Part shown: positions 4,738-22,058 of the stretch, one piece after another
How the letters are laid out: each line of letters begins with the position of its first letter
Position numbering within the stretch: position 1 is the first letter of the stretch
Source: Bacteriovoracaceae bacterium
GTDB taxonomy: Bacteria; Bdellovibrionota; Bacteriovoracia; Bacteriovoracales; Bacteriovoracaceae
Assembly: GCA_016784965.1 (NCBI GenBank)
Contig: JADHTQ010000011.1
Location: 1-64,000, forward strand
Length of the DNA: 64,000 nt
Direction of reading: 5' to 3'
Program-made: the position numbers and the translations under genes
Notes under the pieces: model-generated
Seen by the model: the letters and a program-made list of their open reading frames with translations, nothing else
Databases searched by the model: none
Told to the model about the DNA's origin: nothing

Positions 4738-6030
4738 TTATCTTGAAGTTGTTGGTATTATGGGAGTATTGTCTTTTTCTCCCAATGACTGATTTAATTT
4801 TTTAAGTAATTTTCCTCCATTTATGGCACCAAAGCGAGTTACAGGGGTTACACCTGTTCTTTTGCTGCTGGCCCCATCAATGCATTGATTAATGTTGTCA
4901 CACATTGTGGCCTGAGATCGCTTGATCTGGTTGTTGATGTGCTTGCCAAGAAGAGTGTTGTTGAATCCTTTAGTAGATCCAAGAAGCTGGGTGTACATAT
5001 CTACCGTATCATTTTGAAGTTGCAAATTATCCAAGTCACTGGTCAACAGCTTCATATTAAATCGCTGCTCATCAAGTGACTTTAAAGCTTTCATGGCACT
5101 GGCTTCTTTTTTCTGAAAATCCTCTATAAGCTTCTTCAACTGACTAAACTCATTACCTCTTTCAGTTTGGGCCAATATCGCAATTCTGTTCTCACTGAAA
5201 TTTCTAAATCCGGGATGTTTTTTTATGATCTCTTGGTGAGCAACTGACATTAAATTGCCATAAGCATCTTTTAATTTTTTCCAGCGCTGCTTTAGATCAC
5301 TTTCCACTACATCCATTTGAGCAGGCATGCGACCTGCTCGTGCTTTTGTTCTTTTAATGTCTGTTCTTGCCCTATCTCGTCCCTGCCTGTGTTGAGTGGC
5401 GTTTGCATAAGTCCGGTCTAAAGCTGCTTGATCCTCATCTCCAGTACTACCACTAAGGGCCTGTGTTGCAACTTGCAAACCTACTCTGTGTCTTTGTACA
5501 TCTTGTTGCAATCCCGCTACCTGACCAGGCACTGCCTGTACTGTAGCCAGTGATTGATTGAAGTGCCCGCCAGCGGTGTTATAGGCAGCTCTGGCACTTC
5601 TAAATGGTTTTGCCTTGGCAAATCCTAGCCTGTCCAGTTTTGCATCAGTAAAAAGATCTGGGCGACTTCTGTATAATTGAGGGTCTGTTTTGGAGGCATT
5701 TTGAATCCATTCTCCAAGACGCTTAGCATTTTCTGCTTTCACTCTTCTTATTTCTTCATCGTCACAATTTCCAAATAAGCTGGAGGGGCAGTGTTTTAAC
5801 TCCACGGGTGGACCACATACCTCAACCTCTTGCGAACTATCACTAGTTGGATCTTCTTCCTCCATATGACACTTTAATGAGGCATACTGGCTGTATTCAT
5901 CATCTTGAGTGAAGTTATACTGTTGATTGCCAAAAAAACTTTTATAAACTCCATCACCAGCAAAGGCACTTGAAGCAAAAAAGCTGATCAAAAGAAAGAA
6001 AACAAAACACACTACTTTCATTAAATTCAT
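4738..6030 (-). CDS. secreted coiled-coil protein of unknown function
   Basis: The product is 430 residues with a signal peptide ending SSAFA. After it comes an acidic, cysteine-containing segment (CHMEEE, CGPPVELKHC, FGNC) of about 90 residues, then long Gln/Arg/Lys-rich helices likely to form coiled coil (about 150-370). A cysteine pair (MCDNINQC) lies near the C-terminus. I do not recognise a family. ATG 6030 is backed by GGGAGG seven bases upstream. The cysteines fit a protein of the periplasm or outside. Confidence 0.75.
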   Translation of the reverse strand: MNLMKVVCFVFFLLISFFASSAFAGDGVYKSFFGNQQYNFTQDDEYSQYASLKCHMEEEDPTSDSSQEVEVCGPPVELKHCPSSLFGNCDDEEIRRVKAENAKRLGEWIQNASKTDPQLYRSRPDLFTDAKLDRLGFAKAKPFRSARAAYNTAGGHFNQSLATVQAVPGQVAGLQQDVQRHRVGLQVATQALSGSTGDEDQAALDRTYANATQHRQGRDRARTDIKRTKARAGRMPAQMDVVESDLKQRWKKLKDAYGNLMSVAHQEIIKKHPGFRNFSENRIAILAQTERGNEFSQLKKLIEDFQKKEASAMKALKSLDEQRFNMKLLTSDLDNLQLQNDTVDMYTQLLGSTKGFNNTLLGKHINNQIKRSQATMCDNINQCIDGASSKRTGVTPVTRFGAINGGKLLKKLNQSLGEKDNTPIIPTTSR

Positions 6031-6170
6031 ACTTAACCTCCCAAAATATAAATGTACCTAATTAGTTCATCCTCTCTTAGATTGTCTCATCGGTTACTGC
6101 TGTCTTAACCTTGAATATTTTAATATCCTATCACCTTAAGTTGGCCCACATAAAAAAAATTTACGAAATT

Positions 6171-6200
6171 TTGACTTAAAGCTAAAACAATTATTAAAAT
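6171..6200 (+). promoter_or_regulatory. sigma-70-type promoter for the small gene at 6220
   Basis: A -35 TTGACT (6171-6176) and a -10 TAAAAT (6195-6200) are 18 bases apart. Transcription would start near 6207, only about 13 bases before ATG 6220. This rules out the upstream in-frame GTG at 6202 and fits the missing ribosome site. Confidence 0.5.
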
Positions 6201-6219
6201 TGTGATACTGTCTTGTGCT

Positions 6220-6465
6220 ATGAAAGAAATATTAAAATCCGGCCATGGAAGCGATTTAGAAATTTCTGCAAATAAAAATGATGAATGCATACGCGTCCAA
6301 CTGACCAGGAATACTGGTTTTTTTTATCTCAATTCTGAACAAATCTCGAACTTACAAACAATTTTAGACAACGCCCAAAAAAAAATTATCCGAGCAAAAG
6401 CAATGAATCAAAAGTTGCTACGACTTAGAAAATCTAAAAAAAATCAACTGGAACTGTTCGGTTAA
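6220..6465 (+). CDS. small basic protein of unknown function
   Basis: The product is 81 residues. The N-terminal half looks like a small beta-rich domain (VQLTRNTGFFYLNSEQI) and the C-terminal half is a charged basic helix (KKIIRAKAMNQKLLRLRKSKK). It has no signal peptide or cysteines beyond one. The basic helix could bind nucleic acid, but nothing proves it. A promoter directly upstream supports a real, near-leaderless gene. An alternative GTG start at 6202 lies upstream of the predicted transcription start. Confidence 0.5.
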   Translation: MKEILKSGHGSDLEISANKNDECIRVQLTRNTGFFYLNSEQISNLQTILDNAQKKIIRAKAMNQKLLRLRKSKKNQLELFG

Positions 6466-6528
6466 CGCCTACCGTCACGGGTTTTTGACGCAAAAAACAC
6501 CTGAGTGAAAAAATAATGTATTTTCTAG

Positions 6529-6559
6529 TTGACAAACCATTATATTAATATATTATAAT
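6529..6559 (+). promoter_or_regulatory. strong sigma-70 promoter for the Met-rich protein operon
   Basis: A perfect -35 TTGACA (6529-6534) is followed by overlapping -10 candidates TATTAT (6551-6556, spacer 16) and TATAAT (6554-6559, spacer 19) in a very AT-rich spacer. It is the best consensus promoter in this part of the window. Confidence 0.7.
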
Positions 6560-6572
6560 TTCATAATATGAG

Positions 6573-6610
6573 GCCCGGACATCTGATTTCGGGCACTTAG
6601 GAGGGGAGGG
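6573..6610 (+). promoter_or_regulatory. leader hairpin next to an extended ribosome binding site
   Basis: GCCCGGA (6573-6579) can pair with TTTCGGGC (6588-6594), giving a 7-bp stem. Five bases later comes AGGAGGGGAGGG (6599-6610), an unusually long Shine-Dalgarno tract three bases before ATG 6614. The arrangement suggests strong, possibly structure-tuned translation. Confidence 0.4.
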
Positions 6611-6613
6611 CCT

Positions 6614-7591
6614 ATGGTAAAAATCAAAACTTGGACACTAATCATCGCAAGCACACTTCTTATCACCAATGAGTCACATGCATTTTTTGGCATGATGATG
6701 AATATGATGAAAATGCCCATGCAAATGATGCAGGGGATGAATCCCATGGGGGGTGGAAATCAAAATGGTAAAGAAGGCGGAATGTTCGGTCTAATGAACA
6801 ACATGGTCAATGGAATGACGGACGGAATGAAACTAGGATTTCAAGGAATTGATTGTTTCGGAGACAAAATCGGCTTAATGAGTAATAGAATTACCTCTTT
6901 TGCCGGAAGAGGTAGAACGACGCCCACGCAAGGATATGGAGCACAGTGTGATTTCGATCGAATCCCCTTGGCGACAGGACAGACAAGCCAAAGTGAGATA
7001 GCTCAACAAACTGGTTCGCGGGGTGAGCAAATTACCACGCGACCAAGAAGAGGTAACCCCGGGCCAAGGCGACCAAGAAGAAGACTACGAACCAGACTGG
7101 CAATAAATGACCCCAATGATACCACTACACCAGCTCCTAGAAAACGCGCCAGACTTAGACTAAGCAGACAAACCTTAACAGCAGCAAACAAACCCGTAAT
7201 ATTGGTTAAACCATTTACAGGTCAACAGCTTGACCTTGAGCAAGCACCAGAACTTTTAACTGATAACAATGCCAAAAAGATGTACATACACATCATTTTA
7301 CCTGAGCTTCTACCAGAGCTTATAGGCGCTCAAGGCATTAATGCCTCCTTTGATACTAAAAGAATGGCCCATGTATTCATTTATGATACACAACAAGATT
7401 GGAGCACCATTTGGACCACAGGTCTAAAGTATCTGGCCCAAGAGAATCTCCTACAAAGTGATAAAGTAATTTTATCTGTGACAACATTTTCAAAAAATAG
7501 TCAGTTGGGTAAATACCCAGACACTAACTATGTTCCAGTAACCGTTGCAGGCCTTAAGGGTTACTCACAACAAATTAATAGTCAGCAATAA
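6614..7591 (+). CDS. exported Met-rich protein with one copy of an unrecognised repeat domain
   Basis: The product is 325 residues: a signal peptide (to A23), then a Met-rich segment (24-72, 16 Met in 49 residues, with clusters such as MMMNMM), an Arg/Pro-rich linker (about 140-185, PRRPRRR), and a C-terminal domain (about 211-321). That domain contains QDWSTIW and ends VPVTVAGLKGY. The domain lines up with both repeats of the next protein (DWNADW then GLKNKY; NWDEDW then GLKELY). I do not recognise the family. Met clusters outside the cytoplasm can bind Cu(I) or be oxidant sinks; that is speculation here. It is the first gene of a two-gene unit with a consensus promoter and a very strong ribosome site. 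Confidence 0.7.
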   Translation: MVKIKTWTLIIASTLLITNESHAFFGMMMNMMKMPMQMMQGMNPMGGGNQNGKEGGMFGLMNNMVNGMTDGMKLGFQGIDCFGDKIGLMSNRITSFAGRGRTTPTQGYGAQCDFDRIPLATGQTSQSEIAQQTGSRGEQITTRPRRGNPGPRRPRRRLRTRLAINDPNDTTTPAPRKRARLRLSRQTLTAANKPVILVKPFTGQQLDLEQAPELLTDNNAKKMYIHIILPELLPELIGAQGINASFDTKRMAHVFIYDTQQDWSTIWTTGLKYLAQENLLQSDKVILSVTTFSKNSQLGKYPDTNYVPVTVAGLKGYSQQINSQQ

Positions 7592-7623
7592 TTAATATTA
7601 CTTTAAATAAAAAAGAGAGATAT

Positions 7624-8622
7624 ATGAAAATCAAAATAGTAAAATTTGTAGCAATAACTATTATTTTAACTCAAACAATGCTTTCTCCAAATGCCCACGC
7701 CATGATGGGTATGATGAATATGATGAGTAATATGATGGGTGGTATGATGCCTGGGATGGGGCAAAATCAAGCACAAGGACCAAGACAAGGTGGATATAGA
7801 GGTCAAGGACCTGCATATGGAAGGCCCGTATATGGCGGAAGACCTAATTACCCCCAAAGACCTCAGGTACAAATTACTCGCGATAGAGAGCACAAAGTTA
7901 CCACAACGGTAGCACCAAAGTTAACTCTTTCAAATAAAGCAAATTGGGCAAAGATTGTTGTAAGTGACAAAGATGATTTTGCGGCAGAGACTACAGTTGA
8001 CGTTAACATCTCCGACTTAGAAGCTGACTGGAATGCTGACTGGGAAGACCTTACGGCAACTTTTATAACTACATTGATAGAAACTAATGTCAAAATATTA
8101 TCTGATTATGTCTATTTAAAGGCTACTCCATTTACTAGCGGCCAACAGGCCTATGGACAGATGGAGTCAAACTACATTCGCATCAAAGTTTTGGGTCTAA
8201 AGAACAAATATAATAGAATTTTAGGTAAACCAAGTGTTCGACTAACTCGAAATAAGCGCATTGCAGTTACAACCACCTCTGCCCCTAAACTAAAGCTTAG
8301 CAATGGTGCAACTAGTGTTAGGCTTTTAGTAAGTGATAAGGATGATTTTAATCCAGAAATAGCCGTGGAGCTTGATGTTTTTGATATCGAAGAAAATTGG
8401 GATGAAGATTGGGCACTTCTTCTAGAAGATATGGTTATTGTCTTGATCGAAAACGATATTGACTTGAGGTTTAACTTGGTCCACATCAAGGTACAAAGCA
8501 CTATTGGTGAAGAAGATGATGAGGCACCAGTATTTGAATCACAATCACTACGAGTTAAAATTGGCGGTTTAAAGGAACTCTACTCTAATACATTACAAGA
8601 GCTAATGGGTGAGGCGATCTAA
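7624..8622 (+). CDS. exported Met-rich protein with two copies of the same repeat domain
   Basis: The product is 332 residues: a signal peptide (to A26), a Met-rich stretch directly after it (MMGMMNMM to about residue 45), a Gly/Arg/Tyr/Pro segment (50-80), then two tandem repeats (about 84-200 and 206-325). Both repeats share the order V-TTT--APKL-LSN, VSDKDDF, [DN]W--DW, a hydrophobic helix, and a closing strand [YS]-R[IV]KV-GLK--Y. The last motif is also in the protein encoded upstream. The genes are 32 bases apart on one strand and probably co-transcribed. Function is unknown; the acidic, beta-rich repeats suggest a binding or assembly domain outside the inner membrane. Confidence 0.72.
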   Translation: MKIKIVKFVAITIILTQTMLSPNAHAMMGMMNMMSNMMGGMMPGMGQNQAQGPRQGGYRGQGPAYGRPVYGGRPNYPQRPQVQITRDREHKVTTTVAPKLTLSNKANWAKIVVSDKDDFAAETTVDVNISDLEADWNADWEDLTATFITTLIETNVKILSDYVYLKATPFTSGQQAYGQMESNYIRIKVLGLKNKYNRILGKPSVRLTRNKRIAVTTTSAPKLKLSNGATSVRLLVSDKDDFNPEIAVELDVFDIEENWDEDWALLLEDMVIVLIENDIDLRFNLVHIKVQSTIGEEDDEAPVFESQSLRVKIGGLKELYSNTLQELMGEAI

Positions 8623-20120: not shown

Positions 20121-22058
20121 ATGCCAATTATTTTACTGCTTTGCTTCATTCAAAATCTATATGCTGATCATCTCGAGTATGATGAAACGAGATATAGCTA
20201 TCGTGCAGTTTATACTAAGCCCCCTGCCAACTCCAGGCAACTTGGTCCGGCCATTTTTTTACCTAAAAAAATTATTGGCAGGATTGGTATTTCTGAGGGT
20301 GATCCCATTTATGTCGCATTGGGCACTAAGAGGATGCAACTTAGAGTGTATAGCAAATTGACCAGCTCTACCGTTTTTGGACTACATAAATATTTGGCCA
20401 GAAAGCTAGGAGTAAAAAAGGGCAAAAATACTCTAATCTTTAGTTATGTCCCCCCAGATTTGATCACTTTACCGCCAAAACCTGTGGGTCTTTCCATTAA
20501 GCAATATAAAGGAATCCCCACTTTATGGCCCAGGATAGTTTTTAGCGCCCCTCATGGAGATGGTGATTGGGAAACTGGAGCCATTTTAGAGGTACTTGCT
20601 AGTGAATTTAAGATTCCAAGTGTTGCCTATTATGGTTGCAGACTTACATACAGAGGTTTTTGGTATGACTGCAATAGACCCCTTATGAAGCTACCCAAGC
20701 CCGTTACCGGTGTTTATAAAACGCGCGTTTGGAATCAAGATGCAATTTCCGTTTATGAAAAATACCAAAATAGTTTATGGCAAACTGCCCGTATTGAAAA
20801 AGATAAACGGTTTAAATTTTTTGTAAGTTTCCACGGACACGATCTAACCTATAAGGGCCAAAATGGATCGACCTTGCCACGTCCAGTTATAGAAGGGGTC
20901 GGTGTTGGTTTTTCAAAGACGCAACTTAAAAAAATTAAAGCGTTTTATAAAGCAAATGGAACCAAGTACTTTAAAAATCCCCCTGCTTTATATTTTGGAA
21001 ACCTAGGAAGTGATCAAACCTATACCATCAAGGGGGTCTCGGTGCCGTTTTATTATTCGGCCCTGGGAACTAGAACTTATGGCACTCTTAGAAGTGACCT
21101 AGTAGAATATGCTCTTCACCTAGAAACTCCAAATTCTATCCGCTTGGGAGAAGGTGCGAAGCTGCAAACAGCTAGCTTTTTAAAGGACTTAACTAACTAT
21201 ATTGTTGATGAACTATTGGCGGAAAATGAAAGAACCATCACTATTAGAAGACAATTAGCAAGAAATAGGGTGCTTGATAAAAAAGTCTATATTGCCAAAA
21301 ATAAGTTTCCCATGGGAGCGAAAGAAGGTGCTGGATGGGACAGTGAGCACCCCAGACATCAATCAACAGCAGGCCCCATTTTGATGAGCTTGTATGAAGT
21401 TACCAATAAACAATACGTAAAATTTTTAAATAGCGCACATATTGCAGGTGTGATTGTTGTAATTGATGGCGTGGTCTTTGATGCAAATGACCTCTCCCAT
21501 ACTCTTTTTAAAACAAAAAAGGCGGCCAAATTTGGCCAAATTGCATTCGTAGGAGATAAGTTTGTAGTAGATGAAGGTAAAGAGGATTTTCCCGTGGTTT
21601 ACGTCTCCTATTATGGAGCAAAGTTTTATGCCAACTTTTGTGGAGAACGCCTTCCCCTGGAAACCGAGTGGGAAATGGCCGCCAGCTGGGATCCAGTTGC
21701 AAACAAAAAGTACCGATACGGTACCTCTTCTGATGAACTTCAAATGAGTTGGGCCAATACAGAAAATAGTGGCGACTCCTATGAAGTGAAACCGTCTGCA
21801 TTACAAACAACCCCCGTTGGCCTTTATTCTAGGACCTCTCCATCGGGCCTATATGATATGAGTGGAAATGTTTGGGAGTGGTGTGATGACTATTTTAAAA
21901 GTAGTTACGGAAGCTCAACTGCCAATGAAACCATGAGAGTGATCAGAGGTGGTGCCTGGAACACAGAGGCGATAATGACCAGAACTACTTTAAAATTAGG
22001 CATCAATCCCAACAGTACACTGATTAATGTTGGGTTTCGTACGGTTTTGGATCCATAG
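20121..22058 (+). CDS. exported fusion: amidohydrolase-like domain plus SUMF1/FGE-fold domain
   Basis: The product is 645 residues with a short signal peptide (to about A15). Residues about 35-115 form an unrecognised beta-rich domain. Residues about 135-365 resemble the N-formylglutamate amidohydrolase family: APHGDGDWETG (His145, Glu151), CNRP (Asn185/Arg186) and SFHGHD (His238/His240). Residues about 390-643 are a SUMF1/FGE fold: CGERLPLETEWEMAA, GLYDMSGNVWEW and RVIRGGAW. The two cysteines used by true formylglycine-generating enzymes near the C-terminus are missing, so the domain is probably a binding or structural module. The ribosome site AGAGGGG is clear. The substrate is unknown; cell-wall or peptide amides are possible. 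Confidence 0.75.
   Translation: MPIILLLCFIQNLYADHLEYDETRYSYRAVYTKPPANSRQLGPAIFLPKKIIGRIGISEGDPIYVALGTKRMQLRVYSKLTSSTVFGLHKYLARKLGVKKGKNTLIFSYVPPDLITLPPKPVGLSIKQYKGIPTLWPRIVFSAPHGDGDWETGAILEVLASEFKIPSVAYYGCRLTYRGFWYDCNRPLMKLPKPVTGVYKTRVWNQDAISVYEKYQNSLWQTARIEKDKRFKFFVSFHGHDLTYKGQNGSTLPRPVIEGVGVGFSKTQLKKIKAFYKANGTKYFKNPPALYFGNLGSDQTYTIKGVSVPFYYSALGTRTYGTLRSDLVEYALHLETPNSIRLGEGAKLQTASFLKDLTNYIVDELLAENERTITIRRQLARNRVLDKKVYIAKNKFPMGAKEGAGWDSEHPRHQSTAGPILMSLYEVTNKQYVKFLNSAHIAGVIVVIDGVVFDANDLSHTLFKTKKAAKFGQIAFVGDKFVVDEGKEDFPVVYVSYYGAKFYANFCGERLPLETEWEMAASWDPVANKKYRYGTSSDELQMSWANTENSGDSYEVKPSALQTTPVGLYSRTSPSGLYDMSGNVWEWCDDYFKSSYGSSTANETMRVIRGGAWNTEAIMTRTTLKLGINPNSTLINVGFRTVLDP

Follow-up and report, generated by a model that had tools for sequence, protein, structure and literature searches.

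Two exported methionine-rich proteins of a Bacteriovoracaceae bacterium and the domain family they share

The P1 and P2 genes and their signals

The window analyzed here is a stretch of 64,000 nucleotides of contig JADHTQ010000011.1, and it carries, on the forward strand, two consecutive ORFs separated by 32 bases. P1 (6614-7591, 325 amino acids) and P2 (7624-8622, 332 amino acids) encode exported, Met-rich proteins and lie where a first-pass annotation had placed them. Both products begin with a signal peptide recognized from sequence and hydropathy (residues 1 to 23 of P1, 6614-6682; residues 1 to 26 of P2, 7624-7701). These peptides end in an A-x-A-like site, at which NESHA is followed by FFGMMM in P1 and PNAHA by MMGMM in P2; cleavage after SHA and AHA, respectively, was placed by eye. 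The order of signal peptide and then Met-rich segment had been noted before and is seen in both proteins, the Met stretch starting directly after the cleavage site. The mature chains open with FFGMMMNMMKMPMQMMQGM in P1 (residues 24 to 50, 6683-6763, with 11 Met and neither His nor Cys) and with MMGMMNMMSNMMGGMMPGM in P2 (residues 27 to 45, 7702-7758), so that about half of the first 19 to 23 mature residues are Met. These stretches hold 11 to 12 Met per 30 residues, and the runner-up among the window frames of at least 100 amino acids holds 6. Neither protein has a His among its first 60 mature residues. The Met segments are too polar to span a membrane (best 19-residue hydropathy, 0.14 to 0.52).

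Beyond the Met-rich stretch, the two proteins are laid out differently. P1 continues with a two-Cys module (6776-6988; DGMKLGF..I.C ... C.xD.IP..xGQ, with Cys 81 and Cys 112), an Arg/Pro-rich basic linker around residues 139 to 182 (7028-7159), and one copy of a domain that it shares with P2 (7193-7576). Residues 121 to 205 have a net charge of +15, which places the basic character of P1 in the linker and not in the domain. In P2, a linker rich in Gly, Arg, Tyr, and Pro (7759-7860) leads into two copies of the domain (7861-8217 and 8230-8589).

Upstream of P1 there is a promoter-like site (6529-6559, forward strand) in which TTGACA is followed by TATTAT at a spacer of 16 or by TATAAT at a spacer of 19. 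As a consensus match only, it scores 11/12 with the 16-nucleotide spacer and 12/12 with the long 19-nucleotide spacer, and it is the sole 12/12 site of the window at spacers of 15 to 19. The earlier description of this promoter as the best of the region thus stands for consensus matching across the 64 kb. The ribosome-binding site had been called extreme; this is true of P1, which has a strong TAGGAGG (6598-6604), and not of P2, where we read a weak GAGAG. It had also been proposed that the proteins are made in quantity, but codon usage gives no backing for this: when the two flagellins of the window are used to train a codon index, P1 ranks 32nd and P2 ranks 25th of 36 genes. High production is therefore not established, and the promoter-like site and the P1 ribosome-binding site are what speaks for it. 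An inverted repeat (ATATTAT-N6-ATAATAT, 6550-6569) spans the -10 region of P1 and is a possible operator; it is absent upstream of gene A of the second operon described below, and, being AT rich, it may have arisen by chance. On the same strand lie an 82-amino-acid ORF without a family upstream of P1 (6217-6462) and a 76-amino-acid HTH_3 regulator downstream of P2 (8775-9002). A further ORF of the window (20121-22058) has an exported N-terminal part and a C-terminal part that by eye resembles a formylglycine-generating-enzyme domain.

The paralogous operon and the shared domain

The same genome contains a second operon, on contig C39 (locus L005:3514-6425), with three genes, A, B, and C, followed by a strong terminator-like hairpin. 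A search with P1 as the query finds A (E 2.5e-16, the value for the genome) and C (1.6e-9) there. A is P1-like over its full length at 27% identity; its start is most likely the GTG at L005:6401, behind a TAGGAGG. Both proteins have DGMKLGF-x(2)-I-x-C and C-x-x-D-x-I-P-x(3)-GQ and keep both Cys residues, which indicates that they are the same kind of protein. The Met part of A is weaker and acidic. B has a Met-rich mature N terminus and one diverged copy of the domain, which we regard as tentative because it rests on a BLAST match to P2 (E about 6e-4 to 7e-4 when five proteins were compared without correcting for composition) and on its position in the operon, whereas none of the left-out profiles recovers it. 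C has a signal peptide and two domain copies but no Met part; its second copy is recovered by a profile built from five other copies (2e-4). Met-rich mature N termini are thus present in P1, P2, A, and B, with 10 to 16 Met among the 60 N-terminal residues of the mature chain. Together, the five proteins hold six secure copies of the domain and one tentative copy, and each operon pairs a one-copy protein with a two-copy protein (P1 with P2, and A with C). The C39 operon is flanked by three exported proteins that are paralogous to one another and about 135 amino acids long (L005:3040-3453, 6684-7091, and 7362-7772). They have PGDW-type acidic/Trp segments, a conserved Cys-containing C terminus, and a weak resemblance to DUF4189; a weak match of one of them to Bd0108 covers the first 35 residues only, which are the signal peptide, and was discarded.

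The first-pass annotation had aligned one domain copy in P1 and two in P2, and this was confirmed with a profile that combined the domains of P1, A, and C1 and left out P2. This profile detects P2 with an E value of 7e-13 for the whole protein and of 1e-6 and 7e-4 for its two repeats taken singly; it was run against 258 real frames and against 7,000 shuffled sequences, the best of which reached 0.1. The alignment did not vanish in profile-profile comparison either: hhalign of {P1, A, C1} against {P2d1, P2d2} gave a probability of 96 and an E value of 5e-9 over 95 columns. A search with P2 alone reaches C at 7.6e-9 and P1 at a marginal 0.09. The link between P1 and P2 therefore leans partly on the paralogues, and it would have been hard to prove with the window sequence alone.

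All of the marks said to be shared by the three copies are present (APEL, APKL, and APKL; DWSTIW, DWNADW, and NWDEDW; VAGLKGY, VLGLKNKY, and IGGLKELY). The proposed repeat is real, but its length of about 110 residues has to be revised: two further short segments precede AP-L (VQITRDREHKVTTT-, VRLTRNKRIAVTTT-, and VILVKPFTGQQLDL-), so the unit starts about 15 to 20 residues earlier and is nearer 120 to 130 residues. Across the seven copies, with the tentative B copy included, only P, N, and W are invariant. There is no conserved polar cluster and no invariant His, Cys, Asp, Glu, or Lys, which speaks against a catalytic role for the domain and against its having a conserved metal site; the pattern of conservation suggests that the domain is probably a scaffold. 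A tree of the copies has long branches, and its clearest point is that the two copies of P2 are sisters (support, 0.83).

Predicted fold and distribution of the family

Folds were modeled for two of the seven copies, the P1 domain and the first repeat of P2. The AlphaFold2 model of P2 copy 1 (mean pLDDT, 86.7; pTM, 0.77) has strands at residues 12 to 18, 29 to 34, 66 to 74, and 89 to 92 and helices at 41 to 57 and 96 to 103. In the P1 domain, strands are predicted at 222 to 228, 251 to 256, 284 to 292, and 306 to 311 and helices at 264 to 277 and 314 to 324, with an extra helix at 230 to 238; the model of full-length P1 has low confidence outside the domain. The two models have the order E-E-H-E-E-H in common, and different folds, which would have spoken against a shared repeat, were not found; the P1 model is only partly independent, since P2 copies were in the alignment used for it. 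No match to a PDB fold reached an E value of 0.001, and no viral fold matched significantly. With a domain construct lacking the first two short segments, the best PDB match of any kind in Foldseek had an E value of 0.084, and matches to fibronectin type III (FN3) domains were at 0.7 or worse (TM about 0.4, 7 to 12% identity). The low-confidence model of full-length P1 likewise gave nothing significant, and its laccase matches (E 0.5, probability below 0.1) were set aside. The weak FN3 and Ig-like matches are to beta sandwiches of similar domain size from extracellular proteins, and a remote beta-sandwich relationship of the modeled domain may exist; however, the model has a central helix of 14 to 17 residues that FN3 domains lack.

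No relative was found outside this genome in 129 genomes of the family; the order- and class-level searches covered these same 129 genomes. There was none among 368 other genomes of the phylum, a set with no other genome of the same genus, and none in viral contigs or phage or plasmid records. Two pattern scans of 85,000 species, with short patterns that detect close relatives only, also returned no relative. Nothing in Pfam, NCBIfam, PHROGs, or PADLOC exceeded the curated cutoff, the best matches being chance-like (BNIP2 at E 0.011 for P2 and PaaE at 0.002 for B), and the PDB gave no sequence match at an E value below 1. The repeat had been called unrecognized, and these searches bear this out: as far as they reach, the P1/P2 domain is a previously undescribed, lineage-restricted family.

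Several candidates were rejected along the way. Matches to P1 alone at L010 and L011, in two genomes of the family, proved to be a Met/Gln-rich coiled-coil tail in one case and a chance match in the other. Three marginal matches in the phylum (G136, G225, and G267; E 0.02 to 0.08) were a stop-containing frame, an unrelated exported protein, and a purH-like gene. An excess of MMxMM codon patterns in this genome (35, whereas most relatives have single-figure counts) comes mostly from Asp-rich coding sequence read in another frame, and only about five of its proteins are truly Met rich. Other low-complexity proteins were seen as well. An exported protein at L087 (contig C78, about 5076-6830) has long Met/Gly-rich runs (GGMNPMMMMMMMGAMSGKGGGGGNNMMPMMMMMMMGGGGMGGG) and is by eye unrelated to P1 and P2. 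At L070 and L010 (genome G057), in two genera of the family, a Met/Gln-rich protein lies ahead of a recJ-like gene, and the Met-rich segment appears to be kept in synteny there. L078 (contig C46) encodes a protein with about 30 consecutive Asp.

Possible roles of the exported proteins

The reading that we tentatively favor, with odds that we put below even, is that P1 and P2 have a structural or adhesive role after export and co-assemble outside the inner membrane into an envelope or surface assembly. After cleavage of the Sec signal peptide, a flexible Met/Gly-rich N terminus would be exposed, and it may self-associate or stick to membranes and surfaces. The linker that follows, basic in P1 and rich in Gly, Arg, and Tyr in P2, would connect it to folded domains serving as protein-protein scaffolds. 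The net charges are +14 for P1 and -9 for P2 and are -8, +13, and +20 for A, B, and C, respectively, so each operon encodes an acidic product and at least one basic product; the P1-like member is basic in one operon and acidic in the other. Oppositely charged partners from each operon could thus co-assemble, and the charge swap is what co-variation of partners would produce; coming from only two operons, it is no more than suggestive. The operon would have been duplicated (P1/P2 on C15 and A/B/C on C39), after which the copies diverged, and such a duplicated, diverged operon is more in line with a surface or envelope layer specific to the lineage than with a housekeeping enzyme. Several observations count against an assembly. 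Neither operon has a partner of known function beside it, the flanking genes (methylcitrate cycle, peptide transporter, phospholipase D, and amidohydrolase) giving no functional hint; C has no Met part; and the codon usage does not point to a major structural protein.

The exported set is lineage restricted, fast diverging, and accompanied by paralogues, and Tad-type pilus and flagellar genes occur within the same 64-kb window. The gene content, including these genes, and the size of the phylum suggest that the bacterium may be a Bdellovibrio-like predator. The exported set and the pilus and flagellar genes are in keeping with a secreted factor for attachment to, or interaction with, prey or other surfaces. 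We nevertheless consider this unlikely, as we see no regulatory or physical link to the pilus, secretion, or flagellar genes and no similarity to known secreted enzymes.

Rather unlikely, in our judgment, is an envelope sponge for copper(I) or silver, in which N-terminal thioether clusters (MxxM, MM, and MxM) would hold soft metal ions and the domain would be a carrier. Sites made up of Met alone are able to bind Cu(I)/Ag(I), examples cited in PMC5008109 and PMC9302797 being Ag-M2/M3 sites and, in the latter paper, the Met-rich helix of CueO, and four of the proteins are rich in N-terminal Met. Like P1 and P2, the SilE and PcoE sponges are small, exported, Met rich, and probably partly disordered. 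Their motifs, however, pair His with Met (MxxHxxxxxHxxM), with ten conserved His (PMC5008109), whereas the Met segments of P1 and P2 have no His and are joined to a new folded domain. Metal binding, oxidant trapping, and a surface coat had been raised at the outset; of the three, metal binding of the SilE type (His/Met silver-copper) is not supported, because of the missing His, and the best fit is to an exported assembly. Moreover, among the neighbors of both operons we recognized no metal resistance or efflux gene and no SilE/PcoE-like operon with metal efflux genes, and the Met part is missing from C.

It is also conceivable, but quite improbable, that the Met segment has no special function and has drifted into a low-complexity tether following the signal peptide, so that only the domain matters. 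The absence of a Met part from C, the weaker, acidic one of A, and the occurrence of Met-rich low-complexity stretches in other exported proteins of this genome agree with such drift, but the segment is kept in four of the five proteins despite about 25% identity elsewhere. Very doubtful is that the Met residues, which make up such a share of the mature N termini, are a sacrificial antioxidant or redox switch whose oxidation shields the envelope or, as with yeast Pbp1, dissolves an assembly: Met-rich low-complexity segments do drive redox-sensitive condensates in eukaryotes (reviewed in PMC8394241), but bacterial exported examples are unproved, and no methionine sulfoxide reductase was recognized by eye among the ORFs of the window or in the roughly 45 kb around the C39 operon.

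The eukaryotic proteins (yeast Pbp1/ataxin-2 and Pab1) resemble P1 and P2 in carrying a Met-rich segment, also rich in Gly, Pro, Asn, or Gln, on folded domains and in their possible self-association. They differ in being intracellular RNA-binding proteins (PMC8394241), and there is no homology. A long shot beyond the favored co-assembly is that Met-rich N termini and opposite partner charges would together drive condensation in a lineage-specific extracellular or periplasmic assembly, a bacterial exported counterpart, with a new domain family, of the Met-rich low-complexity condensates.

If the co-assembly reading is wrong, P1 and P2 would be one among many lineage-restricted exported families, yet with a well-defined domain, a fold modeled at fair confidence, and an operon that has been duplicated. 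If it is true, they would represent an undescribed domain family and a compact case of Met-rich stickers acting outside the cytoplasm, present in two natural versions in one genome with the partner charges swapped.
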